64,000 nucleotides of DNA from an uncultured Bacteroidia bacterium (GCA_937922655.1 CALAJH010000015.1:1-64000), one strand, 5' to 3'. Positions 2,986 to 23,341 are shown, numbered from the stretch's first letter. The notes: generated from the sequence alone by a model not told the origin. Numbers and translations: made by a program.

Positions 2986-4083
2986 ATGTCTTCATGCATT
3001 TTTATATGGATGTGGCTTTGGGCCGCAAACGCGACGTGGGCGCAACCGGGCGTGTTTACATCGGTAGACGAAGCGTTTAAGGCGCCGAAAACGGTGCGCA
3101 AATTGGTTTTGAGCGGCAAAGGACTGACCGAACTCCCCCCCGGCCTCGACGCTTTTCCCCACCTCAAATGGTTGGATTTGAGCCGAAACAAACTCACCCA
3201 ATTTCCAAAAGAACTCGTTCATTTACCGGCGTTGGAAACACTCGACTTGGGGCGCAACAAAATCGTCGTTCTACCGCCCGAAATCGGCCAAATGCGCCGG
3301 CTCCGTTACCTTTGCCTCGAACACAACCAAATCACGGGACTGCCGCCCGAAATCGGCATGCTTGATTCGTTGCAAAAACTCGATTTGACGGTCAATCGCA
3401 TCGGCGCCTTGCCACCCGAATTTTACCATCTGACCGAACTGCGCGAACTGCTTTTGCGCTTCAACGAAATCAAAGAGCTGTCGCCGGCGGCGGGTGCGTG
3501 GACAAAAATGTTCAAAATCGACGTTTCGGCCAACGAACTCTCCGAACTTCCCGAAGAACTCGGCCTTTTACCCCTCGACACCCTCAACGCCTCCGCCAAC
3601 CGCCTCAAAACCATACCCGGCTTTGTCGCCCATCTCAAAAACCTCAAAAAACTTGCGCTTTTCAGCAACGAAATCACCGAAATCCCGGCGTTCGTTTACG
3701 AGCTGACCCAACTCGTCGAACTGAATTTGGGAAGCAATTTCATTACCGAATTGGCGCCCGAAATCGGCAAACTGACCGAACTTAGAATTTTGCAGTTGCA
3801 CGACAACCGCCTGACAAGTTTGCCGCCCGAAATCACCCGGCTTGTCAAACTTCGAGAGTTGTATTTGTCGGGCAACCGTCTGACAAGCCTTCCCGAAGGC
3901 ATGGGAAAAATGAAGGAATTAAACTATTTGGAAATTCAAAAAAACAAAATCGAATCTTTACCCTTTGATTTTACGACGATGCACAAACTCAGGACGTTGT
4001 ATTTGGGGGGCAACCCGCTTTTGAAGTCGGAAGTTGAGGTGTTGCGGAGCGCCATGCCGAAAACCAAGGTGGTATATCCTTAA
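2986..4083 (+). CDS. Secreted leucine-rich-repeat protein
   Basis: This encodes 365 residues. A short N-terminal hydrophobic segment ends in ATWAQ, consistent with a Sec signal peptide. The rest is about 14 tandem leucine-rich repeats of 23 residues with the bacterial/plant-type pattern LPPEIGxLxxLxxLxLxxNxI, closed by a shorter repeat around LYLGGNPL. Such repeats form a curved solenoid for protein binding; no catalytic domain is attached. It is separated by only 16 bp from the upstream lipoprotein gene but has its own -7 element. The last 4 bp overlap the end of purE on the other strand. The binding partner is unknown. Confidence 0.88.
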
Positions 4084-4556
4084 ATTTCGGGAAGGGTCAT
4101 GGCTTCGACCTTGCGCCGGAGTTCGTCTTGATGATTTTCAACGGCCTTTGCCACAACGGGGTCGTGAACGCCGATGATTCTGGCGGCCAAAACGCCGGCG
4201 TTGAAAGCGCCGTTGACCGCAACCGTGGCCACGGGTATACCTTGGGGCATTTGCACGATGGAGAGCAGAGAGTCCAAGCCTTGCAACGAATTGCGGGACA
4301 AAATCGGCACGCCGACGACGGGCAGCGAAGTCAGCGACGCAACCATGCCGGGCAGGTGCGCCGCCCCCCCCGCCCCCGCGACAATCACCTTCAACCCCCG
4401 GGCTTTGGCGTTTTGCGCGTACTCGTACATGGCACGGGGGGTGCGATGAGCCGAAACCACCCGCGTTTCGTATTCCACACCCAGCATTTTCAACGCCTCG
4501 GCCGCCGCACGCATCGTTTCCCAATCCGACGCGCTACCCATAATAATTCCTACCAT
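4080..4556 (-). CDS. purE: N5-carboxyaminoimidazole ribonucleotide mutase
   Basis: This is a 158-residue protein, the normal length for class I PurE. It has the MGSASDW phosphate-binding loop near the N-terminus, SAHRTP, the [10 protein letters not shown] loop and PVVGVP, all in family order. It converts N5-CAIR to CAIR in de novo purine synthesis in the cytosol, normally with PurK supplying N5-CAIR; no purK is in the window. The gene stands alone. TAATTTTG lies 4 bp before its ATG, predicting a leaderless mRNA. The stop overlaps the stop of the convergent LRR gene by 4 bp. Confidence 0.97.
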
Positions 4557-4751: not shown

Positions 4752-4782
4752 TTGGAAGTTTCATTCAAGCGTTTTATTTTTG
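4752..4782 (+). promoter_or_regulatory. Promoter of the three-gene membrane/VWA operon (TTG-N20-TATTTTTG)
   Basis: TTG at 4752-4754 and TATTTTTG at 4775-4782 are separated by 20 bp, a full match to the Bacteroidota two-part promoter. The surrounding DNA (4557-4833) is much more AT-rich than the neighbouring genes. The leader to the ATG at 4834 would be about 45 nt. Confidence 0.6.
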
Positions 4783-4833: not shown

Positions 4834-6036
4834 ATGTCAATTTTAAAAAATACGTTAAAAAACGTCTCAAATTGGAAGAAATGGTTTAATAAAAACAGCG
4901 ACCAAACCACAAACGCCGGCGACTCAACGCAATCGAGCTCGGAAACAAAATCCCAAACCACAGGCTTCCACGAAAAGGTTGAATTTCAAAGTACGACCGA
5001 ATCTTACTCAAGCGGCACGACGCAAGATTCTTCGGACTCGTACTCGACCTTCAACAACATCCGCTACCGATGGATAGAGGACGAAGAGCTGTTGCGCGAC
5101 GAAGCGGTGATCGACGGCATGGCAGGTTGCGACGGCGCCGAAAAAGTCAATGCCATTCGCGCGTACTACAAACACTTGGCCTCAAAATCGTTGGAAAGTT
5201 TGGCGTCCATCGACGACGAACTTAAGCCGTTGCAAGAAAAAAAACACGGCCTTGAAAATCAAAAAGAAAATATCGAATCGGAGATTAAAAAAATCGACGC
5301 CGAAATTGAAATTCTTTCAATGGAGAAAAAAGGCGTTTTCGACAGGCACGGTACGCGTAGTCTGCTTGCGTTGGTCGCCGCCCTTCTCAGCGTTCCGGTT
5401 GTACGACATTTTCTTACACCGGCCATCGGCGATACGTACATTGCGTGGTTGATAGCGGGAGTGGCGTTGTTTGCGGGGTCGTTTATGTTGTGGGGGGCGA
5501 CGTCGGTGCTGCATCGCTCCGCAACGCCCACGCCCCGGGAAAAACTCCTCGGCTGGCTCGAAGAGTTCGGGGCTCCGCTGGTTGCCACGGGAGTTTTTGT
5601 CGCCCTGCTTTGGAACAGCCTGCCCAAAAACATGCTTATCGGCGTTACATTGCTTTTTTCGCTCGTGTTTTTTATGGCGGGCCGCTCGTTTTTGGGCAAC
5701 CTCTTTCAAGGTTTTGCCCATTGGCGCGAAAATCGAAACCTTAATCTCAAAATCAAGACTTTGACCAAAGACCGAAAACGACTGGCGGAAAAAATTCCTC
5801 AAATCGAAAACGATGTCAAAAAAATCGAAGAAGACGTGGATAAAATCCGAGCAAAACACCACGAAGAAACCAAAAAACATCGCATCGTCGTTGAAAATAT
5901 AAACAATATTGCCGAAAGCCGCGTCCTGCTTTACGAGTCCGAACGTAAACGCGCAGAAACTTTTATGAAATTTTTGGAAAAGAATCACGAAGAAGTTAAA
6001 CCCGAATTCACAGCCAATTTCAAAAGCCAAAACTAA
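4834..6036 (+). CDS. Membrane protein with coiled coils, first gene of an unrecognised three-gene operon
   Basis: This encodes 400 residues with no family I recognise. Residues 20-75 are Ser/Thr/Gln-rich and probably disordered. A short conserved-looking block (DEELLRDEAVIDGM, about 83-96) follows. Residues 115-166 are a Lys/Glu-rich coiled coil. Four hydrophobic segments lie near 176-192, 202-221, 246-263 and 267-284. A second coiled coil covers about 296-350. With no signal peptide, the N- and C-terminal coiled coils should both be cytoplasmic. The next protein has the same order of parts, so the two look like distant paralogues that could hetero-oligomerise through their coiled coils. The sequence is Lys/Asn-rich compared with nearby genes. 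The function is unknown. Confidence 0.8.
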   Translation: MSILKNTLKNVSNWKKWFNKNSDQTTNAGDSTQSSSETKSQTTGFHEKVEFQSTTESYSSGTTQDSSDSYSTFNNIRYRWIEDEELLRDEAVIDGMAGCDGAEKVNAIRAYYKHLASKSLESLASIDDELKPLQEKKHGLENQKENIESEIKKIDAEIEILSMEKKGVFDRHGTRSLLALVAALLSVPVVRHFLTPAIGDTYIAWLIAGVALFAGSFMLWGATSVLHRSATPTPREKLLGWLEEFGAPLVATGVFVALLWNSLPKNMLIGVTLLFSLVFFMAGRSFLGNLFQGFAHWRENRNLNLKIKTLTKDRKRLAEKIPQIENDVKKIEEDVDKIRAKHHEETKKHRIVVENINNIAESRVLLYESERKRAETFMKFLEKNHEEVKPEFTANFKSQN

Positions 6037-6042
6037 TAAAAA

Positions 6043-7581
6043 ATGAACAACGGAAGCCCAAATCCCAACGACCAAAGCTTCGGCACGTACGGACAACAAA
6101 ACACGGAGCGAAACCCGCGCACCGCCGAAGAAATTTACAACCGCCCCAAGCGGGAAAGAAACACCGTCATCATCCGGCGTTTTCCCGACTCCGAAATCTT
6201 CGACGTCCACAAACAAGGATTGATTGACGGGGTCATGGAAGTTCCCGAGGAAAATTACCCCAAATTTCAAAAGGCCCTCGAAAACGAATTAACGACGAAT
6301 CGTTATGAAATCGAACGACTCAACAAAGAAATCGCCGACTTAGAACAAAAAATTGTCAAAAACCACGAAGAAGACCGCAAGCTCCACGAACAGCGCCACT
6401 CAAAAGAGGCTGAACGAGACGCCCTCGAACACGTCGTCCAAGAACTTGAATCCAAACGCCAAAAGCTCGAAGAAGAAAGAAACAACCTCGCCGACGACAT
6501 CAAAAAATACGAACCCGCATCGGGAGGGTGGTCGGTTGTTTTATTGATGGCGGCGGCGATAGCGTTCGTAGTCGGCGAAATCATCGTCAATATCAAAATC
6601 GTTGCCGACGCCTTCGGCATGGAAGGTTGGCAGGGAAAACTGTTCGCCGCCGGTTTGGCCGCCGTTTCCGTACTGCTCAAGCCCGCCTACGACCGCCTGC
6701 TCGAAAAACCCTACCTTGAAGCTCGCCCCAAAATTACGCGGGGATTTATCGTGGTCATGGTTATCGTATCCGTACTTTCCTTGATGACGGCGTACCTTTT
6801 GGGCGAATTTCGGTTCGACACCGAAGCGTTGAATAAAATTTCGGAATTGGACGAGTACGAAAGGCAAAGACTCGGCAACAAAATCGTCCAACTCGAAAAC
6901 GAATTGACGATAGAATCCATGACGGGATGGGTTCCCAAATTCAGTTTTATTTTGGCGGCGATATTGTTTGCCATCGGCGGGACGGTGTGTTTGAGTATCG
7001 CGCTCACGGCAATAGAATACCGCCAACGCAAAAACAAACTTGAAAAACGATTGACGGGGGTAAAAAGCGAAATCACCGAAACCGTCAAAGAAATCGGAAC
7101 GAAAATAAAAGATCTAAACGACGTGAAAGCAAACGTCAAAACGCTAAATAACCAAATCGAAAAACTGCCGAAAACCGAAGAATTGGAAAAAAAACTTTCC
7201 GACCTTAATCAAGAACTCGTCAAAAAAGCGTGGAAAGCCGCGGAGTACGAACAGGAAGAGGCCGCCGCCCTATACAAAAACGCTTACGAACGCGGCAAGG
7301 CTATTAAAAAATTTTATCAGGAAAATCCCGAAATTTGGGGAAAATTCTATTTGCGACATGACGACGAAACCGGCGAAAGTCCGTTTTCCGAAGACGGTTT
7401 TATCAACATTGAAACCATTGAACCCGATGAGAACCCCATTGAAAACAAAAAATTCAAACGCCGCACCCCCGTTCGTCCGTACCAAGCCCTCAAATTGGCC
7501 ATCGGAGCCAAGTTCCGCGACGACTGTCGTTCAAAAAAAATTTTTGACCCAAGTGTAAGAAATTATGACGTGGAGGTTTAA
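6043..7581 (+). CDS. Membrane protein with long coiled coils, second gene of the three-gene operon
   Basis: This encodes 512 residues starting 6 bp after the previous stop. Its order mirrors the upstream protein: a polar Asn/Gln/Pro-rich start (1-38), a short block containing GLIDGV (about 59-64), a long coiled coil (about 72-155), four hydrophobic segments (about 163-183, 198-214, 234-253, 299-323), a second coiled coil (about 325-400) and a charged C-terminal region. No nucleotide-binding, nuclease or peptidoglycan-binding motif was seen. The last 17 bp overlap the start of the VWA lipoprotein gene, so translation is probably coupled. I infer a structural or sensing complex in the inner membrane; the function is not known. 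Confidence 0.8.
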   Translation: MNNGSPNPNDQSFGTYGQQNTERNPRTAEEIYNRPKRERNTVIIRRFPDSEIFDVHKQGLIDGVMEVPEENYPKFQKALENELTTNRYEIERLNKEIADLEQKIVKNHEEDRKLHEQRHSKEAERDALEHVVQELESKRQKLEEERNNLADDIKKYEPASGGWSVVLLMAAAIAFVVGEIIVNIKIVADAFGMEGWQGKLFAAGLAAVSVLLKPAYDRLLEKPYLEARPKITRGFIVVMVIVSVLSLMTAYLLGEFRFDTEALNKISELDEYERQRLGNKIVQLENELTIESMTGWVPKFSFILAAILFAIGGTVCLSIALTAIEYRQRKNKLEKRLTGVKSEITETVKEIGTKIKDLNDVKANVKTLNNQIEKLPKTEELEKKLSDLNQELVKKAWKAAEYEQEEAAALYKNAYERGKAIKKFYQENPEIWGKFYLRHDDETGESPFSEDGFINIETIEPDENPIENKKFKRRTPVRPYQALKLAIGAKFRDDCRSKKIFDPSVRNYDVEV

Positions 7582-8392
7582 TTTTCCGCTCTTTTTGGGG
7601 ATAACGTTGGCGTTGCTAAGCGCATGCGATTCAAACGACAACGGCGCCGAGGTCCTGCAAGAAAACACAGAACAAAAACCGAATGTGGCCATTCTGCTTT
7701 TCGACAAATCGGGGAGCAACCGCATCGACAGTCTTGCCGTCAAAAAAGCGCTAAGCGAGGCGATAGACGAAATGGTCGTACGGCCCAAAAGCAAAAAGGG
7801 CAAAGTGCTTTTTTGCCACAACGAGAACGTCGTTTTTTGCGGAACGATTGACGGCAAAACCATCAATCGCGGCCTAAGGCCTTTGCATTGGGAGGTGGAA
7901 CGGTTTTGTCGCCAAGAATGCGACAACCAACTGCCCACCAGCGAATGCAACAAAAAAGAAAGAGCCGTCCATGAAAAGATTCAACACCGCAAAATCGAAT
8001 TGGACTCTTTGGTGTGGAACTACCGCAAGGAACCGCCCGCCGACCGAACGACGACGGACGTGCTTTCGGCGTTGGTGGCCGTGGCCAACGAAATCAACGG
8101 CGACAAATACGCCCGCAAGTCGTTGCACATTTTCAGCGACATGCTTACGGAAGTGAGGGGGGGACGCAACTTCGACCGTACCCCTCCCCCCGACGACGCC
8201 ACCGCCCGTCAATGGGCGCAAGAAGATTGGGCGGCCCTCAAACAACAATACGGCCTCAAAGACGAAGGATTTCGGGGAATGCGGGTGGTCTGCCACACGC
8301 CCCCCTCGGTCAAGAACCTGCAAAAAGTCGCCCTTTATTGGCGGCACCTCTTTGAGGACGTGCTGCAAACGGCACGGGTCGAGGGATTGTAA
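7565..8392 (+). CDS. VWA-domain lipoprotein, third gene of the three-gene operon
   Basis: This encodes 275 residues. The signal sequence ends in LSAC with Cys 21 as the lipidation site, followed by acidic and polar residues (CDSND). The mature part fits a von Willebrand A fold with an intact metal-ion site: DKSGS at 47-51 (DxSxS), the TTTD segment at 162-165 and the Asp of FSDML at 192. VWA domains bind a partner protein through a bridging divalent metal. Cys residues at 84, 92, 115, 119 and 128 could form disulfides. Start at ATG 7565, 17 bp inside the previous gene. The site would lie outside the inner membrane while both partner genes encode inner-membrane proteins. The family call is good; the role is unknown. 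Confidence 0.82.
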   Translation: MTWRFNFPLFLGITLALLSACDSNDNGAEVLQENTEQKPNVAILLFDKSGSNRIDSLAVKKALSEAIDEMVVRPKSKKGKVLFCHNENVVFCGTIDGKTINRGLRPLHWEVERFCRQECDNQLPTSECNKKERAVHEKIQHRKIELDSLVWNYRKEPPADRTTTDVLSALVAVANEINGDKYARKSLHIFSDMLTEVRGGRNFDRTPPPDDATARQWAQEDWAALKQQYGLKDEGFRGMRVVCHTPPSVKNLQKVALYWRHLFEDVLQTARVEGL

Positions 8393-8518: not shown

Positions 8519-10243
8519 TCAACGCGGCAGGAAAACGACGAAAGTCGTGCCTTGTCCCGGACGGGATTCGACGGTGATTTCGCCATCGTGTTGGTCGACG
8601 ATGGCTTTGACAATGCTCAATCCGAGGCCGGTGCCTTTTTCCCCTTGCGTGCCGGAACGTTGGTAGCGGCTGAACTTTTCAAAAAGGTGGGCCGACTGTT
8701 CGGGCGCCAAGCCGACGCCCGAATCTTTGACCATGACGGCGGCGACGGGACGGCCGTTGCGTTCGCTTGCGTCGAGCGTAACGGTAACCGTCCCCGAGGG
8801 GGGCGTGAACTTTATCGCGTTGGAAATCAGGTTGTTGAAGGCTTGTTTGAGGCGGGCGGGGTCGCCGGCAACCGCGGCGCCGGACGCCACCTGCAGCGTC
8901 AGTTCGATTTTTTTGGCCGCCGCCGCCGACATTTGCGTGTTCACAACGGTTTGCAATATTTCGCGCAAATCCACGTTCTCTTTCGGAGCGGAAACGGTGG
9001 ATTCGAGACGGGCGAGTTCGAGCAGGTCTTCGGTCATTTGCACGACCGAACGCAAAGAATTTTGAATGATTTTGCCGTATTTGGCCACTTTCGCGGCGTC
9101 GCGAGCGGTGTCGGCGTCTTGCAGGTAGCCCGCCAAACTCAATACGCCCGAAAGCGGCGAACGCACGTCGTGCGCCAAGACCTGCATCATTTCGTCTTTC
9201 ATTTTGTTGGCGGCGTGGAGCTTTTCAAGTTTTTCGTTGAGGTCGGCGGTGCGGGCGCCGAGTTCGATGACGGCTTCGCTGGAAACCTCGCCGGATTTGT
9301 CGCCACCCCGATAAGCCCCGGCCATCGCCACCGCCGACGCATTGACCAGCGTTTGTATCGCCTCGATTTTGTCAAAAGCGAAGCGTTGCGATTCGCTGTT
9401 GTTTTCCAAATAAAATATGCCCACCAATTTTTCCAGATGAATGGCCGGCACCACGAGCGCAAACTCCACCTCCCTTTTTAAAAAATACAAACTTTCAAAC
9501 GAGGGCTTGACCAAAACCTGCATTTCGGGCCGAGCCAAAACTTTGGCGAAAAGTTCGGCGGGGTAACGGTCGGTGTCCTCGCAACTTTCGTGCAAACCCG
9601 TAACGACTTCGTAAGGTTCTTTGGTGGCCACGGCCTCAACGTATGCCTTGCCGCCTTCGACCATCGCCAAAACGATTTTTTCCGCGTCGTAAAAATGAAT
9701 GAGCTTGTCCAAAAGTTCTTTGAAAATGTCGTTGATGTCGAGTTTGCGGGCGAAAATCGACGTCGTTTGTTGTAAAAAGTGTAAAAGGTCGGAAAGTTCG
9801 TGAAGAACGTTGTCGTACTGTTCGGCTTTTTGGTGGAGCAGAAAGCTGTCGGCGGCCCAAAGCACGAGGTCGAGCAACTTTTGGTTGTCGAAAGGTTTGG
9901 AGACGTAAGCGATGAGTCGGGCGTTGTTGAGGGCGGCGGTAACCTCGGGGAGTTCGGCTTGGGCGCTGAGCATAATTTTTCGCGCACGCGGAAATATTTC
10001 CGCCGCTTGCGTCAAAAATTCATGACCCTGCATCGGCGTGGGCATGCGTTCGTCGGAAATGATGACGGCCACGGGGCGGCCCTCCGTCAAAAATTCCCGC
10101 AACATTTCCATGCCGTCCTCGCCGCTGTCGGTCGTATAAATTTGAAAACGGTTGCGAAGCGGTTCCAAAACCGATTCCACCGCCGTGCGAACGACCTGTT
10201 CGTCGTCCACGAACAGGATAACGGGCTTAAAATATGTGGACAT
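8519..10243 (-). CDS. Hybrid sensor: N-terminal receiver, GAF, histidine kinase
   Basis: This encodes 574 residues. A receiver domain occupies 1-130 (acidic pair D13/D14, phosphoacceptor D64 in SDERMP, K116 in SKPF). A GAF-like region follows (about 170-320), then a short coiled coil, a HisKA domain with the phosphorylated His in LAHDVRSP near residue 358, and a HATPase domain with the N box (NLISNAIKFTP), DSGVGL and GTGLGLS. It is soluble, with no membrane segment. A receiver ahead of the kinase means another kinase or phosphotransferase could control it. No partner is adjacent; three other receiver proteins of the same style lie in the window. TATCTTTG sits 7 bp before the ATG. Confidence 0.93.
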   Translation of the reverse strand: MSTYFKPVILFVDDEQVVRTAVESVLEPLRNRFQIYTTDSGEDGMEMLREFLTEGRPVAVIISDERMPTPMQGHEFLTQAAEIFPRARKIMLSAQAELPEVTAALNNARLIAYVSKPFDNQKLLDLVLWAADSFLLHQKAEQYDNVLHELSDLLHFLQQTTSIFARKLDINDIFKELLDKLIHFYDAEKIVLAMVEGGKAYVEAVATKEPYEVVTGLHESCEDTDRYPAELFAKVLARPEMQVLVKPSFESLYFLKREVEFALVVPAIHLEKLVGIFYLENNSESQRFAFDKIEAIQTLVNASAVAMAGAYRGGDKSGEVSSEAVIELGARTADLNEKLEKLHAANKMKDEMMQVLAHDVRSPLSGVLSLAGYLQDADTARDAAKVAKYGKIIQNSLRSVVQMTEDLLELARLESTVSAPKENVDLREILQTVVNTQMSAAAAKKIELTLQVASGAAVAGDPARLKQAFNNLISNAIKFTPPSGTVTVTLDASERNGRPVAAVMVKDSGVGLAPEQSAHLFEKFSRYQRSGTQGEKGTGLGLSIVKAIVDQHDGEITVESRPGQGTTFVVFLPR

Positions 10244-15020: not shown

Positions 15021-18000
15021 TTATTCCACCGACACCCGCACCGAACGCGTTTGGGCGCCGGCTTGGATTTGCACCAGATACATTCCCGATGCCACCGAAA
15101 CGTTCACGGGAATAACGTTTTCGCCTTTGCCGAAGCTCACCGCTTGACGGTGTACCGTCCGACCCGACAAATCCGTCATCGTAATCGTTCCCTCGGCCTC
15201 GTATTCCAACGTGGCGCTAACCGTAAATTGGCCGCGATTGGGGTTGGGATAGAGGTTGAAAGTCTCGGAGGGTTGGCTTGAAGTCGCGCCCGCCAAACGG
15301 GAAAGCGGATCGGTGAAAAAGTTGGTCAAACCCGAGTAAGTCGTATACGTTCCGTTGGCGCAACGTCCGCGAACTTGGATTTGATACGCCGCGTCGGGAG
15401 TCAAGCCCGTCAAGGTAAAGGACGTAATGTTGCCCAAAGTCACGGTAATCCATCCCGAGGGCGACGGACTCAAACGGCGGTAGCGCAACTGATAGCCGGT
15501 CGCGGCCACTTGGGGAGTCCATGTTACCAACGCCGTCGTCGTCGAAGGCGTAATCGCGTCTATGCTCGTCGGAATGAAGGCGTTGATTTGAATGACGCTC
15601 AAATAAGGATAGACCGTCATGCCAACGTCGCCAATAACCTCGACACGGTAGTAGCCCGGCGCCAAGTTTTCGTAGACGTTCACGTAAGCGAAAGGCGTCG
15701 AACTAAGCACGTTGTCGAAAGCATCGACGGTAATCAAACGGGTGCGAATGGTGTCGGGAATAGCGTCCAAGAAGCCGATAAGAATGCGTCCGTTGTTTAT
15801 CAATCCGGGGCAGGCTTGGTCTTGCTTGCTGACAACGGCGACAATCGGCTGGGCGGCGGGAACCACGTCCACGTTCACCGAGGCTTGGAAGGTACACACG
15901 CCCACGCTCACTTGAACGAACCATGTTCCGTCGTGAATGGCGGGGTCTGCGGCGGCGATGGTCAGCGTTGCACCCGTGGTCGTGTAAACGTTGCCGTCGG
16001 GGTCGAACCACGTAAAGTCGCTCGTGGCGTCGTCGGCGGCGGTACCTTCGGCGGTCAGCGTCAGCACGTCGCCTTCATTGACGGGAGCGTTGGTCGTGAT
16101 GCTCAGCGTACGCGTAAACACGTCCACGTCCACCGTCGAAACCGTGGAGGTACATCCGTCGGCAATGGCCCAAACGGAGTAAGTGCCGGCGTTGTCGCCG
16201 TCGGCGTTGAGGATGGAAACGCTCGTGGCGGCGGTGGTCAAATCAAACCCGTCGGGACCCGTCCAATAGTAAAGGTCGGCGCCCGCGCTCGAAGCGTTCA
16301 GGATAATCGTTCCGTCTTGGCAAACGGGCGAATTGCTCGACACCGTCGGCGCCGAAGGCGTAAGCTTCACATCGACGTCCACCGTCGTTACGTCCGTGCA
16401 AAAACCGTTGACGACCGTTATGGTGTACGTTCCTTCATTGACAAAATCGGCGCTCGTAATTTCAAATTCGCCGGTGGCGTTGGTTTCGTCAAAACCGTTC
16501 GGGCCGGTGATGTTGTAGCTAATCACGTCCGTACCCGTAACGTTAAAGGTGATGGGCGAATATTGGCAAACCGCGTCGGTATAAGTTACGTCGGTAATGA
16601 AAGGCTGAGGATCGACACTGACGTCCACGTACCAGACGCGGTCACAGTTTTCATCAACGGCGTAAACAACGACGGCATAAATTCCATCGTCGGCAAGCGT
16701 CAAGTCGGAAATCGTTACAGTCGCCGCGTCGACCGTTCCACCGCCGGGCAATACCCACGTATAATTGGTGTAACCGGGGCCGGAATCGGCGGTCAATTCG
16801 AGCGTTTGACCGACGCAATAGTTCACCGCACCGGTGATGGTCGGAATCGGCGGCGCCGCTTCGACGAGAATGGTCGTACTTACCTCCGAACTTTGGCACG
16901 GACCGTTGTAAGCGATGACGCTGAGGGTAACGTTTTGGGTAACGCCGCCCACTTCAATCGAGGTGAGAAGTTCGGGGTCGGTGGTGGTGGCCAAATAGAA
17001 GCTGTTCAAGAACCAGTCGTAATTTTGAGCGGTGGTGTTGTCGGCAAAAACGACAAAGTTGGCGCCTTCGCAAACGGTGGCCGGGGCGTCGAGCGTCGGG
17101 TCGTCGGGGATGACGTTTACCGAAAGCGTTACGTAAGCCGTGTCGCTCGGACAACCGTTTTCATAGGCCACCACGCGGTAAACCAATCCGTCCCACGAAG
17201 CGGAAGCGGAAGTCAAGGTCAAAACCGGACCGTCTTCGGGCAACTGCACCATGTCGGCGTCGAACCATTCGTAGAAATCAAGCACGGGGTTGTTGACGGT
17301 GATAGGGTTGGTAACGGTAAGCACCAAATTACTTCCTTCGCAAACCGTCGGAGCGTCGACCTCGGGCGTTACGGGTACGGGATAAACCACGACGTCGATG
17401 AAGCTCGTGGTCAAAGACAAACATCCGTCGGGAGATTCGGTATAGGCGGTATACGTGCCGGCGTCGGCCACGGTCGCTTCGTCAATGACCACCGAACCCT
17501 GATAAACGTCTATGCCGTTGGGGTGCGTAATGTAATAAATTTCACCGGTGATGGGATTGTCCACTTCGACGACAAGTTGGGCGCCCGTGCAAATCGGGCC
17601 GTTGTAAATCAAAGTCGGGGGGGCGGGAGCGGGATTGACGGTAATGTCCACCGTCGCCTCGTCCGACGGGCAATCGTTAATCAAAGCGTAAACCGTATAG
17701 GTGCCGCCGAGGGCAAGGGTAATCGGGCTAACCACCAATTCGGCGCCGATAAACGTACCGCCGTCGGGCAACGACCAATAAAATTCTTGGGGAATGTAGG
17801 GCGTGGAGGCGGTCAAGGTAATGGCGTCGCCTTCGCAAACCGTCGTTCCGGGGTCTACGTCGATGTCGGGCGCGGGGAAGGTCGAATCGTCGCCCGCGGC
17901 CGTGAAATAAAACGTTTCCGAAAAGTCGGTATAGCCCGTGCGCGTAACCGTCGCAGGGTTGGTGGTGCAATCAAGCGTCGAACCGACGATGTTTCCGCGC

Positions 18001-21000
18001 GTCACGACGTATTTTGCGGGGGCGACCGCGGGGACGAACGGCGTAAAGTTTTGGTTGTACGCCGTTACGTTGAATTCTCCATCGCCGGTCACGGGGTTGA
18101 GCGCCGCGTCGTAACCGTTGACGTACCAGCGGCCGTTGTCCAAAACGTCGTAGAATTTCGACGAACAAACACATTCAAAATCCAGCAACGCGCCCGGCGT
18201 TTCATCAAAATAAACGAGCAGGTTGTCGGTGGTCGTGGCGACGGTAAATTCGACGTTCGCCAATTGAAAACCTTTGCCCGACGTGCCGACGGGGAAATCG
18301 TACGAACCCGTGGCGTTGATGTTGCGGCGAATGCGGCCTTGCACGTAACTGATATCCGAAAATCCGACGATGGCCGTCTCGTCGCGGTTCCAAGCGTAGA
18401 TTTCGTTGTCGGATTCGGTGGTAAAGATACCGTCGGTCAAAGTGAGTACGTCTTCGACAACCAAGTTCACGTCCACCACGTCGACTTGGTTGGCGCCCGT
18501 AATGGCCACGTTCGTCACGACGGGGTAATCGCCGTCGTCGCCGATGAGCGTAAAGGTTTGGGTCAAATTCGCCGATTCGTCGTAGTACGAGGCGGGATAG
18601 TTCGTCGAATGCATATATATATGCAAGTTCGCGCCCGAAAGCAGGTCGTGGGCCTCTTGCACACGGCCTTGCAAGCCGGCAATCGGACTGTCGTCGTCGA
18701 TGTGCAGATAGGAATAATCGGGTTGGAAGCCGGCGACCGCATCGACGTCGGTACCGTAATGGAACCATGGACTGAAGTCGATGCTCATATCGGGGGAGCC
18801 TACGAGGGGTTTGACCGCGTCGTCGTCGTTGTCGCCCCACCAGTTGCGCGAGGCGTCAATCATTGCGGAACCGGCGGCAAGGTTGGCCACGCCGTAAAGC
18901 GAGTTGCCCGAGATGTCGTTGTCGCGCACGACGACGGTAATGCCCGACGTCAAAGCGTTAACGGCGCCGACGGCGGTTCCAAAGCCGTTAATGAAGTTTT
19001 CTTGAATGTAAATTTCCGCGTCGGAGTTTAGGTTATCCAAGAGCCATACGCCGAAAGCGTCGCCGGAAACGCCGCCGCCGTCGAGGTCGTTGCGGTAAAC
19101 GTAAACCGTGCCCGTTTCGCCCGCCAAATAGATAAAGCCGAAAAAGTCGGCCGGAGAACCGGAAACGGTATAATTGTTGTACATTATTTCCGATTCGCCG
19201 TAGAGCGCGTCGGATGCAAAGGCCATACCGTAGACCGGCGGATTGACGACGGTAATATCGTTGTATGCGAAAGAAAGGTCGGAACCTTCGAGTTGCTGAT
19301 AAAGCATACCCGGCGCCGATGCAACCCCCGTACCGTCGAGCGAAAATACGTTGTTTTGAATTTGGGCGTTGTCGACTTCGAGCGTGAAAAGAGTAGTGGT
19401 CGAACCGTCCGAAACGTCGGCGACGTTGTAATTGAAAATCAGGTCGTTGGCGTTAATCAATGCCAAGACGGCCAATCCCGCCGCTTGGTGACGGAATTCG
19501 TTGTCCCAAAGCGTCAAACGGTCGTTGCCGTCGGCGCCTTGAATGGTGTTTTCGGTCGTGTTTTCGAAGATGAAACCTTCGATGGTAACGTCGGTAATGC
19601 CGTCAAGGATATTGACAACGGGGCCGAGGTCGTCGTTGACGGCGTTTTGGTCGAGGTCGCCGTCGATAATCGGCGCCGCGGGACCAACGCCGGCCACCGT
19701 CACGTCGCCACGGTCGCCGCGAAGCGTGAGCGGACGGTCGATTTCGATGTGTTCGATGTAGCGTCCGTCCAAAACGTTGACCAAACCGGTGGGGTTGACG
19801 TCGTAGACCGCTTCTTGAACTCGTCCCAAACTACCCGTTTGCGGGCTGTCGTCGTCGACCCAAAGTACGTCGAACAAGGGTTGAAAACCGGCGGCAACGT
19901 CGCTGTCCGTACCTTCGTCCAGCCACGGCGTATAGTCGATGTTGTTGTCCACCTCGGCGGCAACGGCGACGGCGTCGTTCGAGCCCCACCAGTTGCGCGA
20001 AGCGTCAATCAAGCCCGCGGGGTCGAGGTATACCGAACCGACGGTATTACCCGAAAGGTCGTTGTCGAAGATGTCGATGGCGTTGTCGCCCAAGTCTTGG
20101 AACGAGCCGAAAGCGGCGCCAAAACCGTTGATGAAGTTGTTGCGAATAACGACGGGGGAGGCATCGGGGATGTTGTCGAAGAAACGAACGCCGTAACCGC
20201 CGCCGGCCGCATTGCCGCCGTCAAGGTCGGAGTCGGCGACGAGTACGGAACCGAGGTTGCCCGAAAGGTCGATGCCGCCAAAGGCTCCCGAGGCGGGCGT
20301 ACCGGCAAAGGCAAGCGTGTCGCGTTCGAACGTCGTCGCGCCCGCAACGTCGTTGAAACGGTAAGCCGTTCCGTCGGCCGGGGGATTGTTGATAATCGAG
20401 CGGTTGTCGCGGAAATTGACGTTCGGGGCGTCGTCGACGTTGATTACCACGCCTTCAAAATAAGCTACGCCCGTGCCGTTAAAGCTCATGTGGTTGAAGC
20501 GCACGTCAACGTCGCCGGTGTTGCCGACGACGTTGATGCCGTAGTCGCCGTTGCCTTCAACGATGTTCCACGTAAAAAAGAGCGAGCCGGTTTCGGCGGA
20601 AATCACCGCGCCGGCGCCGTCGATGTCGGGCGTGGCGATGCGGTTGTCGCGGATACGGAGGTTGTCGCCGGCCTGAAAAGTTCCGACGGCCGCGCCCAAA
20701 AATCCTTCAAAATTCAAACCTTCGATGGTAACGTCGGCCGCACCGTCTTGAATGAAAAACCCAAAATCCAACGTACCCAAGCCGTCGATTAAAGCGGCGA
20801 CGGGAGCGGGTCCCCATTCGGTGACGCTGCCGCGGTCGCCGGTGACGGTCAGGTTGCTTTTGCCAATAACCGTCGCCTCGTTGTACGTACCGTCTTCGAC
20901 ATAAATTTGGGTGGATTCGAGCGCGTCTACGGCTTCTTGAATCCGTCCTACGGCTTGAATTTGCAAACCCGCATCGGTTACATGAAGCGTGTCGCGATTG

Positions 21001-23303
21001 CCCTGAAAGCCAAAGGCGCTCGAAATGTCCCAAGCGGAATGATAATAAGGGGTAAAATCGACGTCTCCCGCAATTTCGGCGATAACGTCCGTTTCGACAT
21101 TGGAACCGAACCAGTTGAAGGAGGCGTTTAATTCCCCGCCGCCGACCTCGTTGCGCACGGCCAAGCCGTTGCCCGAAAGGTCGTTGTCGTAAATGACGAC
21201 GGAATTGCCGGTAACAATGGGCGCATTAACGCCGACGCCGTAGTCAAAACCCGTCAAGAAGTTGTTTTGGATGACGATGTTGGCGTCGAAAGGAATGTCG
21301 TTCAACAACCAAACGCCGTAAGCTTCGCCGTCCAAGTCGTTGGCGTCGATAATGTTTTGGGAGACGGTGATGTTCTGCGTGGCAACATTGGAAATTTCAA
21401 TGCCGTGAAAAGCATTGACCGACGCCGTTCCCGTATACGTTATGGTGTTTTCGTTGACGAGGTTGTCGCCGGCGGCGGCGCTCAAAGCAATGACCGAGCC
21501 GTCGTCGGCGGGGTTGTTTACGCTAACGTCGTTGCGGTAGAAAAACACATTGCCGGCTTGGAAAGAGCCGAGGGCGTGGCCTTGAATATACGGGCGGCCG
21601 TTGCCGTCAAGATTGAAAACGTTGCGGTCGATAATGAAGACGTTGCCGTCAAGCAAATACAACGTACCGGGCGAAGACGAGTTAAATACGTTCAAAAGAA
21701 TTTCGACGGCTTGAGCGTTGTCGGAAAAAAGGGCGGTGGCTACGTCGCCGGTGGACGTGATTTCGTTGTCGCGGACGACGATGTTCGAACATCCGTTGAG
21801 CAGGGCGATGGCCGGCTCTTCGTAACCCGTGATAAACAAACCCTCAATGGTAACGCCCGAGGCCGCGTCGACGTTGAACGCGGTAAGCAGAACGTTCTGA
21901 CCGTCCAAAACGGCGGCGGCCGGGTCGGGGCCGGCAACCATAACGTTGCCGCGGTCGCCGGTGATGGTCAGAGCCCGATCGATGTTCGTCGATTCGTTGT
22001 AAACGCCCGGATTGACATAAATTTGAGTGGAGGAGAGATAATCCACCGCTTCTTGAATGCGACCGCCGGATTGGAGGTGAAGCCCGCCCAAATCAACGTA
22101 CAAAGTATCGAATCCCGATTGAAAACCTTCGGTGGACAAATCGGTGTCGTAATCGGAGGCGAGGTAGGGCGAAAAATCGACGTTGCCCGTCATTAAACCG
22201 TTGACCGTGGCCGAAACAATCGAACCCCAGTAGTTGCCCGAAGCGTCGATGGCGCCCGCGGGGCCGCCGGCGTTAACCACACCCGCGTTACACGTAAAGC
22301 TGTTGCCCTTGACAACGATGCCGTTGCCCGTGGCGATAGGACCTTGCACACTGACCCCCGCGCTAAAAGCCACAAAGTAGTTGGAATTAATATCTATGGT
22401 CGCCAATGCGGGTACGCTTGTCAAAAACCAAATCCCCGAACCGCCGCCGGAATTATCGGCGCCGTTGAAAATGTTGCGGGTAACGACAAGGTCGTTCACG
22501 ATGCCGATTTCCAAACCATAGAACGCGTTGGCGGAAGCGCTTCCGTCAAAAAACACGATGTTGTCGGAAACGACGAGCGCCCCCGCCGAATTGTTGAAGC
22601 GAATCACCGAGCCGTCGTCGGGCAAATTGATAACGTCGATTTCGTTGTCGCGGATGGAGACGGCGTCGGTTCCTTCGGCGGAAACGACAAAACCCGAGGC
22701 GTAGCCCAAACCGTTGCCGAAAGCCTCGAAGTCGTTGAAACGAATGAGGTGGTCGGAGCCGTCCACAAGATTGAGTACAAACGAACCGCCCGAAACCACC
22801 TTGTTCCACGTAAAATACAGGTCTACGGTATTGACGGCCGAAAGAATACCCAAGGCGCCGACGGAGTTTTCGATTTCGTTGTCGCGGACGCGGATGTTGT
22901 CGTTGTTATCGACGGCGACGATGGCCACGTCGGAGAACTCTTTAATAACGAACCCTTCGATAATCACGTTGTCGACGCCGTCTTCTATGGTGAATGCGGT
23001 TTGCAAGGTACCGGAGTTGCCCGATATCGTCGGCGCCGAGGGGCCGGGGCCGATGACGGTCGGAGAACCGGGGTCTCCTCGCAACGTCAGCGATTTGTCA
23101 ATCGTTACCTCCTCGACGTACGTGCCGGCGTTCACCTGAATAATATCGCCGGGAGCGGCGAAGTCCACCGCCGCTTGAATGGTCGAAAAATCAACCGGGA
23201 CGGTGTACGTCGTCTGGGCGAACGCGCCGCCCGAAGACCACAGCCACGCCATAAATAGCAGGCAGGCCGCTTTGAAAGGGTGTTTTGTCCACAAACTCTT
23301 CAT
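15021..23303 (-). CDS. Giant beta-helix / Ig-like / FN3 adhesin-like protein with T9SS sorting domain
   Basis: This encodes 2760 residues from the ATG at 23303 (MKSLWTKHPFK, Sec signal ending GGAFAQ); a second ATG three codons upstream is possible. About residues 30-1500 are four long right-handed beta-helix units, each opening with an (Q)xAVD...Y segment and TLRGD/TGDRG and closing with a DASxNxWGS-like motif; the closing motifs lie about 373-384 residues apart. A degenerate fifth unit follows (about 1510-1800). About 1815-2490 are nine or ten Ig/PKD-like repeats starting VCEG or VCQ. A fibronectin III domain (about 2590-2665) and a T9SS tail with YPNPNRGQF end the protein. It is probably a surface or released adhesin or glycan-binding protein; no catalytic site is evident. 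Confidence 0.93.
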   Translation of the reverse strand: MKSLWTKHPFKAACLLFMAWLWSSGGAFAQTTYTVPVDFSTIQAAVDFAAPGDIIQVNAGTYVEEVTIDKSLTLRGDPGSPTVIGPGPSAPTISGNSGTLQTAFTIEDGVDNVIIEGFVIKEFSDVAIVAVDNNDNIRVRDNEIENSVGALGILSAVNTVDLYFTWNKVVSGGSFVLNLVDGSDHLIRFNDFEAFGNGLGYASGFVVSAEGTDAVSIRDNEIDVINLPDDGSVIRFNNSAGALVVSDNIVFFDGSASANAFYGLEIGIVNDLVVTRNIFNGADNSGGGSGIWFLTSVPALATIDINSNYFVAFSAGVSVQGPIATGNGIVVKGNSFTCNAGVVNAGGPAGAIDASGNYWGSIVSATVNGLMTGNVDFSPYLASDYDTDLSTEGFQSGFDTLYVDLGGLHLQSGGRIQEAVDYLSSTQIYVNPGVYNESTNIDRALTITGDRGNVMVAGPDPAAAVLDGQNVLLTAFNVDAASGVTIEGLFITGYEEPAIALLNGCSNIVVRDNEITSTGDVATALFSDNAQAVEILLNVFNSSSPGTLYLLDGNVFIIDRNVFNLDGNGRPYIQGHALGSFQAGNVFFYRNDVSVNNPADDGSVIALSAAAGDNLVNENTITYTGTASVNAFHGIEISNVATQNITVSQNIIDANDLDGEAYGVWLLNDIPFDANIVIQNNFLTGFDYGVGVNAPIVTGNSVVIYDNDLSGNGLAVRNEVGGGELNASFNWFGSNVETDVIAEIAGDVDFTPYYHSAWDISSAFGFQGNRDTLHVTDAGLQIQAVGRIQEAVDALESTQIYVEDGTYNEATVIGKSNLTVTGDRGSVTEWGPAPVAALIDGLGTLDFGFFIQDGAADVTIEGLNFEGFLGAAVGTFQAGDNLRIRDNRIATPDIDGAGAVISAETGSLFFTWNIVEGNGDYGINVVGNTGDVDVRFNHMSFNGTGVAYFEGVVINVDDAPNVNFRDNRSIINNPPADGTAYRFNDVAGATTFERDTLAFAGTPASGAFGGIDLSGNLGSVLVADSDLDGGNAAGGGYGVRFFDNIPDASPVVIRNNFINGFGAAFGSFQDLGDNAIDIFDNDLSGNTVGSVYLDPAGLIDASRNWWGSNDAVAVAAEVDNNIDYTPWLDEGTDSDVAAGFQPLFDVLWVDDDSPQTGSLGRVQEAVYDVNPTGLVNVLDGRYIEHIEIDRPLTLRGDRGDVTVAGVGPAAPIIDGDLDQNAVNDDLGPVVNILDGITDVTIEGFIFENTTENTIQGADGNDRLTLWDNEFRHQAAGLAVLALINANDLIFNYNVADVSDGSTTTLFTLEVDNAQIQNNVFSLDGTGVASAPGMLYQQLEGSDLSFAYNDITVVNPPVYGMAFASDALYGESEIMYNNYTVSGSPADFFGFIYLAGETGTVYVYRNDLDGGGVSGDAFGVWLLDNLNSDAEIYIQENFINGFGTAVGAVNALTSGITVVVRDNDISGNSLYGVANLAAGSAMIDASRNWWGDNDDDAVKPLVGSPDMSIDFSPWFHYGTDVDAVAGFQPDYSYLHIDDDSPIAGLQGRVQEAHDLLSGANLHIYMHSTNYPASYYDESANLTQTFTLIGDDGDYPVVTNVAITGANQVDVVDVNLVVEDVLTLTDGIFTTESDNEIYAWNRDETAIVGFSDISYVQGRIRRNINATGSYDFPVGTSGKGFQLANVEFTVATTTDNLLVYFDETPGALLDFECVCSSKFYDVLDNGRWYVNGYDAALNPVTGDGEFNVTAYNQNFTPFVPAVAPAKYVVTRGNIVGSTLDCTTNPATVTRTGYTDFSETFYFTAAGDDSTFPAPDIDVDPGTTVCEGDAITLTASTPYIPQEFYWSLPDGGTFIGAELVVSPITLALGGTYTVYALINDCPSDEATVDITVNPAPAPPTLIYNGPICTGAQLVVEVDNPITGEIYYITHPNGIDVYQGSVVIDEATVADAGTYTAYTESPDGCLSLTTSFIDVVVYPVPVTPEVDAPTVCEGSNLVLTVTNPITVNNPVLDFYEWFDADMVQLPEDGPVLTLTSASASWDGLVYRVVAYENGCPSDTAYVTLSVNVIPDDPTLDAPATVCEGANFVVFADNTTAQNYDWFLNSFYLATTTDPELLTSIEVGGVTQNVTLSVIAYNGPCQSSEVSTTILVEAAPPIPTITGAVNYCVGQTLELTADSGPGYTNYTWVLPGGGTVDAATVTISDLTLADDGIYAVVVYAVDENCDRVWYVDVSVDPQPFITDVTYTDAVCQYSPITFNVTGTDVISYNITGPNGFDETNATGEFEITSADFVNEGTYTITVVNGFCTDVTTVDVDVKLTPSAPTVSSNSPVCQDGTIILNASSAGADLYYWTGPDGFDLTTAATSVSILNADGDNAGTYSVWAIADGCTSTVSTVDVDVFTRTLSITTNAPVNEGDVLTLTAEGTAADDATSDFTWFDPDGNVYTTTGATLTIAAADPAIHDGTWFVQVSVGVCTFQASVNVDVVPAAQPIVAVVSKQDQACPGLINNGRILIGFLDAIPDTIRTRLITVDAFDNVLSSTPFAYVNVYENLAPGYYRVEVIGDVGMTVYPYLSVIQINAFIPTSIDAITPSTTTALVTWTPQVAATGYQLRYRRLSPSPSGWITVTLGNITSFTLTGLTPDAAYQIQVRGRCANGTYTTYSGLTNFFTDPLSRLAGATSSQPSETFNLYPNPNRGQFTVSATLEYEAEGTITMTDLSGRTVHRQAVSFGKGENVIPVNVSVASGMYLVQIQAGAQTRSVRVSVE

Positions 23304-23311
23304 GTGTAACA

Positions 23312-23341
23312 TAAAATTATTCGATTTGAAATTTCCGGCAA
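23312..23341 (-). promoter_or_regulatory. Promoter of the giant T9SS gene (TTG-N19-TAATTTTA)
   Basis: On the minus strand TTG is followed after 19 bp by TAATTTTA, one base off TAnnTTTG. It ends 8 bp before the ATG at 23303, matching the short-leader arrangement of other genes here and favouring that ATG. Confidence 0.45.

Follow-up and report, generated by a model that had tools for sequence, protein, structure and literature searches.

A co-inherited three-gene unit of two coiled-coil membrane proteins and a predicted VWA lipoprotein, first noted in an uncultured Bacteroidia bacterium

The DNA analysed here (hereafter, the window) is a stretch of 64,000 nucleotides from an uncultured Bacteroidia bacterium (GCA_937922655.1 CALAJH010000015.1:1-64000), in which three closely packed genes encode two predicted inner-membrane proteins with coiled coils (P1 and P2) and a predicted lipoprotein with a VWA domain (P3). 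We show that these proteins belong to a unit that several lineages have retained, and strong evidence indicates that P1/P2 and P3 function together. In some lineages the cassette lies inside type III CRISPR loci, and type III CRISPR is an occasional partner of the cassette, not a requirement. The genes in the window are as follows.

4834-6036, + strand: P1 gene, 400 aa (open reading frame call)
6043-7581, + strand: P2 gene, 512 aa (open reading frame call)
7565-8392, + strand: P3 gene, 275 aa (open reading frame call)
7565-7581, + strand: end of the P2 gene and start of the P3 gene, a 17-bp overlap (open reading frame coordinates)

Conservation of the three-gene unit

A search with P2 retrieved two Rhodothermus marinus plasmids; the genes next to P2 on them proved to be P1 and P3, arranged as in the window. 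The two sets of proteins match one to one, with phmmer E-values, all from small searches, of about 3e-6 for P1, 2.7e-25 for P2 and 9e-7 for P3; we refer to the R. marinus orthologues of P1 and P2 as R1 and R2. Profile searches then gave complete P1-P2-P3 sets in genomes G402 (L036), G444 (L038), G660 (L039) and G473 (L040). The first two share a genus with G406, the holder of the R. marinus DSM 4252 plasmid (125,133 bp), and the last two represent two further Rhodothermia lineages. Within Rhodothermus, the P1-P2-P3 loci (L020, L036-L038 and L102) are found on plasmids as well as on chromosomes. The full set also occurs in an integrase-bearing region of Hymenobacter guriensis (L041), which was reached through the P1 motif W..(D/N)..LLRDE and was the only hit when genome contigs were scanned with that motif. 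Pairs of P2 and P3 with no detected P1 were present in G816, G832 (where the contig stops) and G317; the G317 pair sits in a mobilisable element (L026 1-14001) with MobC, a relaxase, a coupling protein, a recombinase, and SIR2-like and CHAT genes.

Outside one family (f72, probably Spirosomataceae) the distribution is patchy. Among 395 Bacteroidia genomes, P2 was detected in six, of which four belong to f72, and a single-sequence search did not find it in any of 21 same-order neighbours of the window organism, itself the sole sampled member of its family. P3 alone (W3) retrieved nothing from plasmids or viral contigs and few matches in Bacteroidia; P2 had no match in phage records, and a scan of IMG/VR with the P1 motif returned no relatives, so that no viral copy was found. 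The original prediction had been staked on the three genes occurring together in other genomes, and so they do—in the same order in several lineages, and by co-inheritance where they are unlinked.

We also came across arrangements that resemble the cassette without matching it. In G014, a member of the window's order, a distant P2-like membrane protein precedes two VWA proteins of the P3 family and one more VWA-like gene (L101 4568-9531), which suggests a wider superfamily of membrane-plus-VWA operons. In G751 (L051 9525-11814), a P3-family lipoprotein adjoins a coiled-coil membrane protein outside the recognition of the P2 profile. Separately, at two loci downstream of P2-P3 (L049 17484-17975 and L050 3727-4892), small PAS-like proteins that to the eye look like photoactive yellow protein are encoded close to coiled-coil proteins roughly 1,150-1,225 aa long.

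Co-inheritance of unlinked genes in one family

Family f72 provides the strongest case for joint action of P1/P2 and P3: P1 and P2 are adjacent there, P3 occupies a separate locus, and P2 and P3 are nevertheless inherited together. Of 121 genomes of this family, 106 have P2 and 105 have P3; the two occur together in 104 and are jointly absent from 14, leaving two genomes with P2 only (87% and 71% complete) and one with P3 only. Fisher's exact test gives p 2e-15 without a correction for kinship. One genus accounts for nine of the 14 double absences, but five more genera also include genomes devoid of both. Present as a single copy in about 87% of the family, the system adjoins purA in two f72 loci.

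Architecture of the membrane pair and the lipoprotein

By prediction, P1 and P2 both reside in the inner membrane, each having four transmembrane (TM) helices and coiled coils at both cytosolic ends. P1 comprises an N-domain, a coiled coil, four hydrophobic helices (177-195, 203-221, 245-263 and 269-287) and a cytosolic coiled-coil tail; across 19 homologues, W80, L87-R88-D89-E90 and G95 of the cytosolic N-domain are invariant, and the tail ends in a conserved L[FY]xSExxxA stretch. In P2, hydrophobic helices were found at 164-182, 235-253 and 303-321, together with a further helix (TM2, about 196-221), faint in the window copy but evident in most homologues. The conservation pattern of 25 P2 homologues picks out an N-terminal GxxxG motif (G59, G63) followed by a coiled coil (69-154), an acidic residue within the TM helices at position 179 (D or E in all 25), K213...E221 after TM2, R257, a coiled-coil hairpin after TM4 (325-427) and a C-terminal R478-P479 motif. 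In both proteins Lys and Arg flank TM1 and TM3 on their left side and TM2 and TM4 on their right, a distribution consistent with both tails of each protein being cytosolic; the same predicted topology makes the P2 TM3-TM4 loop (~45 aa) extracytoplasmic.

In the AlphaFold2 model of P2, residues 69-154 and 325-427 form long helices, with predicted local distance difference test (pLDDT) values mostly of 80-96; the membrane part is poor (pLDDT <50). The helices of this model, the TM segments and the charge pattern all agree with the earlier description of two inner-membrane proteins bearing coiled coils on both ends. Alignment of P1 with P2 over TM4 and the following coiled-coil tail gave an hhalign value of 95.9%, a score that composition could inflate, and the two are probably distant paralogues over this region.

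P3 is predicted to be a lipoprotein of VWA fold, and it carries a conserved metal-ion-dependent adhesion site (MIDAS). The window copy has a lipobox (LLSA|C21), DKSGS at 47-51, T164 and D192, and a lipobox closes the signal peptide in nearly all homologues. Across the 23 homologues, the MIDAS positions are kept at D47 (23/23), S/T49 (23/23), S51 (21/23), T/S164 (23/23) and D192 (23/23); the lipid cysteine, D47, D165, D192, R201 and W259 are invariant, and R201, D221 and Y258-W259 are specific to the family. The features of the VWA superfamily seen in P3 are an alternating alpha/beta Rossmann-like fold, in a low-confidence AlphaFold2 model (pLDDT 55), and the MIDAS pattern DxSxS...T...D. Foldseek matches of this model in the PDB were mostly VWA domains (VWF A3, CMG2, TEM8, factor B, TRAP, NorD and integrin I), and one of ten P3 relatives reached Pfam VWA_2, at E 0.03. 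The metal site first read as intact in a single sequence is conserved in these homologues, as is the lipid cysteine.

No family model in the libraries searched describes these proteins. The window copies of P1, P2 and P3 had no match above cutoff in Pfam, NCBIfam, PADLOC or PHROGs—only weak, mostly coiled-coil matches—and profiles of the three proteins found no related solved structure by sequence in the PDB, which bears out the initial impression of a cassette with no recognised family. Relatives from other lineages likewise had no Pfam or NCBIfam match at E 0.001, and no CARF or SAVED domain was found in P1, P2 or P3 with these two libraries. Coiled-coil matches to Rad50/SMC, JetC, LmuB and others were rejected as composition noise. 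The initial statement that nothing matches ZorAB also holds, in that no Zor model (neither ZorA nor ZorB) is among the PADLOC matches listed (for P2, the best 25 of 53), nor is MotA_ExbB or OmpA among the Pfam matches listed. Within the libraries searched, we found no named kind of system that fits the cassette. We found no description of it in the literature searched, although the transmembrane-linked UAS groups of PMC10910872 might include it.

Linkage with type III CRISPR loci

On the R. marinus plasmids, a CRISPR array and a small DUF4236 gene are followed by P1-P2-P3-csx2 on one strand, with a P3-csx2 gap of 3-4 bp and csm6 further on; this type III-A locus lies beside divergent csm genes. 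The same layout recurs on the chromosome in G402. In G660, the cassette has an array on one side and, on the other, an operon of type III-D that includes Cas10, Csx7, Csx10 and Csx19. In the P2 tree, the R. marinus and G402 proteins group with G444, which has no adjacent CRISPR (support 100/100), and G660 groups with G816 and G832, both free of CRISPR (support 97/98). Because the tree splits G660 from Rhodothermus and the subtypes differ, the linkage with type III systems probably arose twice; a single gain followed by losses is possible, though less likely.

Of the 15 genomes scanned, four contained RAMP genes, and the cassette was inside the type III locus in three of those four; in G444 the type III genes are on a different contig from the cassette. 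No RAMP gene was detected in G317, G473, G816, G832, Hymenobacter or four f72 carriers, nor in the window's own genome, whose assembly is listed as 100% complete. The absence of type III genes from the window's genome and from most carriers means that the cassette must work without type III CRISPR. A dependence of the window cassette on CRISPR was rejected for the same lack of RAMP genes, and no CRISPR array was found within the window's first 14 kb. The early view that the cassette has no link with defence stands for the window copy, which is outside any defence island, but not for its relatives inside type III CRISPR loci. A cas1 gene is present elsewhere in the window's genome (G000 C32:23599-24261, outside the window).

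The cassette in its genomic setting

The immediate flanks of the cassette in the window are the following.

4080-4556, - strand: purE-like gene (named from sequence)
8519-10243, - strand: response-regulator/histidine kinase (family library match)

Flanked by these two minus-strand genes, the cassette is a self-contained unit. Its packing had been described correctly: all three open reading frames are on the plus strand, with a 6-bp gap between P1 and P2, and the 17-bp overlap makes translational coupling of P2 and P3 probable. The full promoter proposed at 4752 was not supported, as the TTGGAA there has only TATTTT after it, and no sigma-70-type site was found on the plus strand between 4548 and the P1 start codon; promoters of Bacteroidota differ from the sigma-70 type.

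The cassette DNA is indeed more AT-rich than its neighbours (GC 45-50% versus 53-59% in the surroundings). The GC content at third codon positions is 0.55-0.56 in P1 and P2, against about 0.68 for the host, and a host-like 0.67 in P3. Since P3 is host-like in this respect, and Lys/Glu-rich coiled coils depress the GC of P1 and P2, low GC is weak evidence for transfer. The transfer suggested in the original prediction accords with the patchy or mobile contexts of some lineages and with P1 and P2 being compositional outliers, but not with near-universal single-copy presence in f72 or with the composition of P3.

The window neighbours scanned include, besides the histidine kinase, a leucine-rich-repeat protein with strong matches to that repeat (2986-4083), upstream of the purE-like gene. 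Further away, on the minus strand (15021-23312), one gene encodes a repetitive, Lys-poor, secreted-type protein of 2,763 aa, with a C-terminal tail that resembles a type IX sorting domain.

Proposed mechanism and alternative explanations

The existence and co-function of the unit are well supported; how it works we infer from the predicted topology, the models and the genomic contexts. We propose, as the best explanation, plausible though short of probable, a conserved three-component trans-envelope complex in which a VWA lipoprotein on a membrane pair would signal to cytosolic coiled coils during envelope or phage stress. P1 and P2 would assemble as a hetero-oligomer, and P3, lipid-tethered outside the inner membrane, might use its MIDAS to hold on to an acidic residue in the TM3-TM4 loop of P2; being the only sizeable extracytoplasmic part of P1/P2, this loop would be the natural docking site for P3. 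Upon sensing a ligand or tension, P3 would change the state of P1/P2, and the cytosolic coiled coils would relay this change or recruit partners, with the LRDE residues of P1 and the GxxxG and RP motifs of P2, all cytosolic, as likely output sites. The most likely role would be to sense or answer envelope damage, phage attack included. Envelope or phage stress is our best guess for the signal because of the CRISPR recruitment and the mobile copies, and such a role would account for the uptake of the cassette by type III CRISPR loci, probably more than once. Transmission of a signal or force across the membrane, for which the layout was originally judged suitable, is plausible.

Several points weigh against this proposal. 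The AlphaFold2 models rest on two sequences each, with mean pLDDT of 55-56. In several P3 members residues +2 to +6 are acidic or polar, loosely like Bacteroidota export signals (PMC5080379), and P3 may be in the outer membrane or on the cell surface, beyond the reach of P1/P2. The comparison with alpha2-delta made below rests on layout. Finally, its presence in nearly all f72 genomes speaks for a physiological role of a resident kind and suggests housekeeping over phage defence.

That same pattern bears on the first alternative, a stand-alone anti-phage or anti-plasmid defence system moving between genomes, which we consider unlikely. It would account for the patchy distribution outside f72 (four of the six P2 carriers among 395 Bacteroidia being f72), for the plasmid, mobilisable-element and integrase contexts (L020, L026, L041) and for the type III CRISPR, CHAT and SIR2-like genes that adjoin relatives. 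Yet single-copy presence in about 87% of a family, next to purA in two loci, is unusual for defence systems, no PADLOC match rises past weak coiled-coil noise, and the window copy is placed between a purE-like gene and a histidine kinase.

A dedicated type III CRISPR-Cas ancillary effector, in which a nucleotide signal made upon target recognition would be read by the neighbouring CARF protein (TIGR02221/Csx2) or by the cytosolic domains and P1/P2 would disturb the membrane, seems distinctly improbable to us. The Rhodothermus cassettes that follow an array and read into csx2, with csm6 further on, the position in G660 between an array and the Cas10/Csx7/Csx10/Csx19 operon, and the probable double origin of the linkage all favour it; the many carriers free of RAMP genes, the type III genes of G444 on another contig, and the lack of a CARF or SAVED domain in P1-P3 (Pfam, NCBIfam) do not. 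Still more improbable is a scaffold with a structural part in cell shape or in the mechanics of the envelope, with the cytosolic coiled coils as a membrane-bound lattice that P3 ties to the outer membrane or wall. Long coiled coils at both ends of two membrane proteins would suit such a lattice, as would near-universality in f72, probably the family of the curved, ring-forming Spirosoma; but the carriers also include plasmids and the rods Rhodothermus and Hymenobacter, no peptidoglycan-binding domain was found, and we found no support in the literature. The view that unrelated membrane genes came to form an operon by chance in a single genome, to which the missing family names and the failure of a single-sequence search to find P2 in 21 same-order neighbours might have pointed, is refuted by the gene order kept in several lineages and by family-wide co-inheritance in f72, and its probability is close to nil.

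Returning to the trans-envelope complex, a bolder form of the proposal, which we hold to be doubtful, is that the cassette represents a new class of machine: a MIDAS VWA lipoprotein that would gate a coiled-coil membrane pair, serving on its own in envelope or phage stress and recruited at least twice into type III loci as a CARF-free, multi-gene membrane effector.

Relation to known systems and significance

The cassette shares features with several known systems. Like Zorya ZorAB, it combines inner-membrane proteins, long cytosolic helical tails and an extracytoplasmic part, but it has a VWA lipoprotein where ZorB has an OmpA-type wall anchor. The VWA proteins of Bat operons in Bacteroidota are TM-anchored and have MoxR, BatD and BatE as partners; they too place VWA domains at the envelope, whereas the cassette has none of these partners. 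Alpha2-delta is a lipid-anchored extracytoplasmic VWA/MIDAS subunit that partners the multi-pass voltage-gated calcium channel. P3 may work in a similar manner, as a lipid-anchored extracytoplasmic VWA protein with a MIDAS and a multi-pass partner, rather than as a member of the group: alpha2-delta is eukaryotic and shows no sequence relation, and no channel fold was seen for the cassette.

Membrane effectors of type III CRISPR systems include Cam1, Csx23, CorA, Cam2 and Cam3 (PMC11229360, PMC10808066, PMC11014256). The cassette resembles them as a set of membrane proteins in type III loci, where their action is unknown or depolarising; it differs in having three genes, one for a lipoprotein, in the lack of any CARF- or REC-type sensor found, compared with the sensor domain of Cam1 and Csx23 (PMC11229360), and in occurring mostly in genomes free of type III genes. 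PMC10910872 describes vWA units near CRISPR with kinase, phosphatase, transmembrane or MoxR partners, and vWA-MoxR-VMAP ternary systems. The cassette likewise contains a VWA protein in a multi-gene unit that can adjoin type III CRISPR, but it lacks a MoxR AAA+ protein and VMAP, and its VWA protein is predicted to be a lipoprotein outside the cytosol. The cassette encodes no ATPase, and no MoxR-type AAA+ protein is named in the annotated R. marinus loci.

Taken together, a three-protein system that is near-universal in one family and found inside CRISPR loci elsewhere has neither a family model nor a described function in the libraries and literature searched. Its conserved metal site and motifs are direct targets for mutation, and hosts with and without type III systems allow a role in CRISPR to be separated from the cassette's own role. 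If the proposed mechanism is true, the cassette would represent both a new mode of envelope signalling and a novel type of membrane effector linked to CRISPR.

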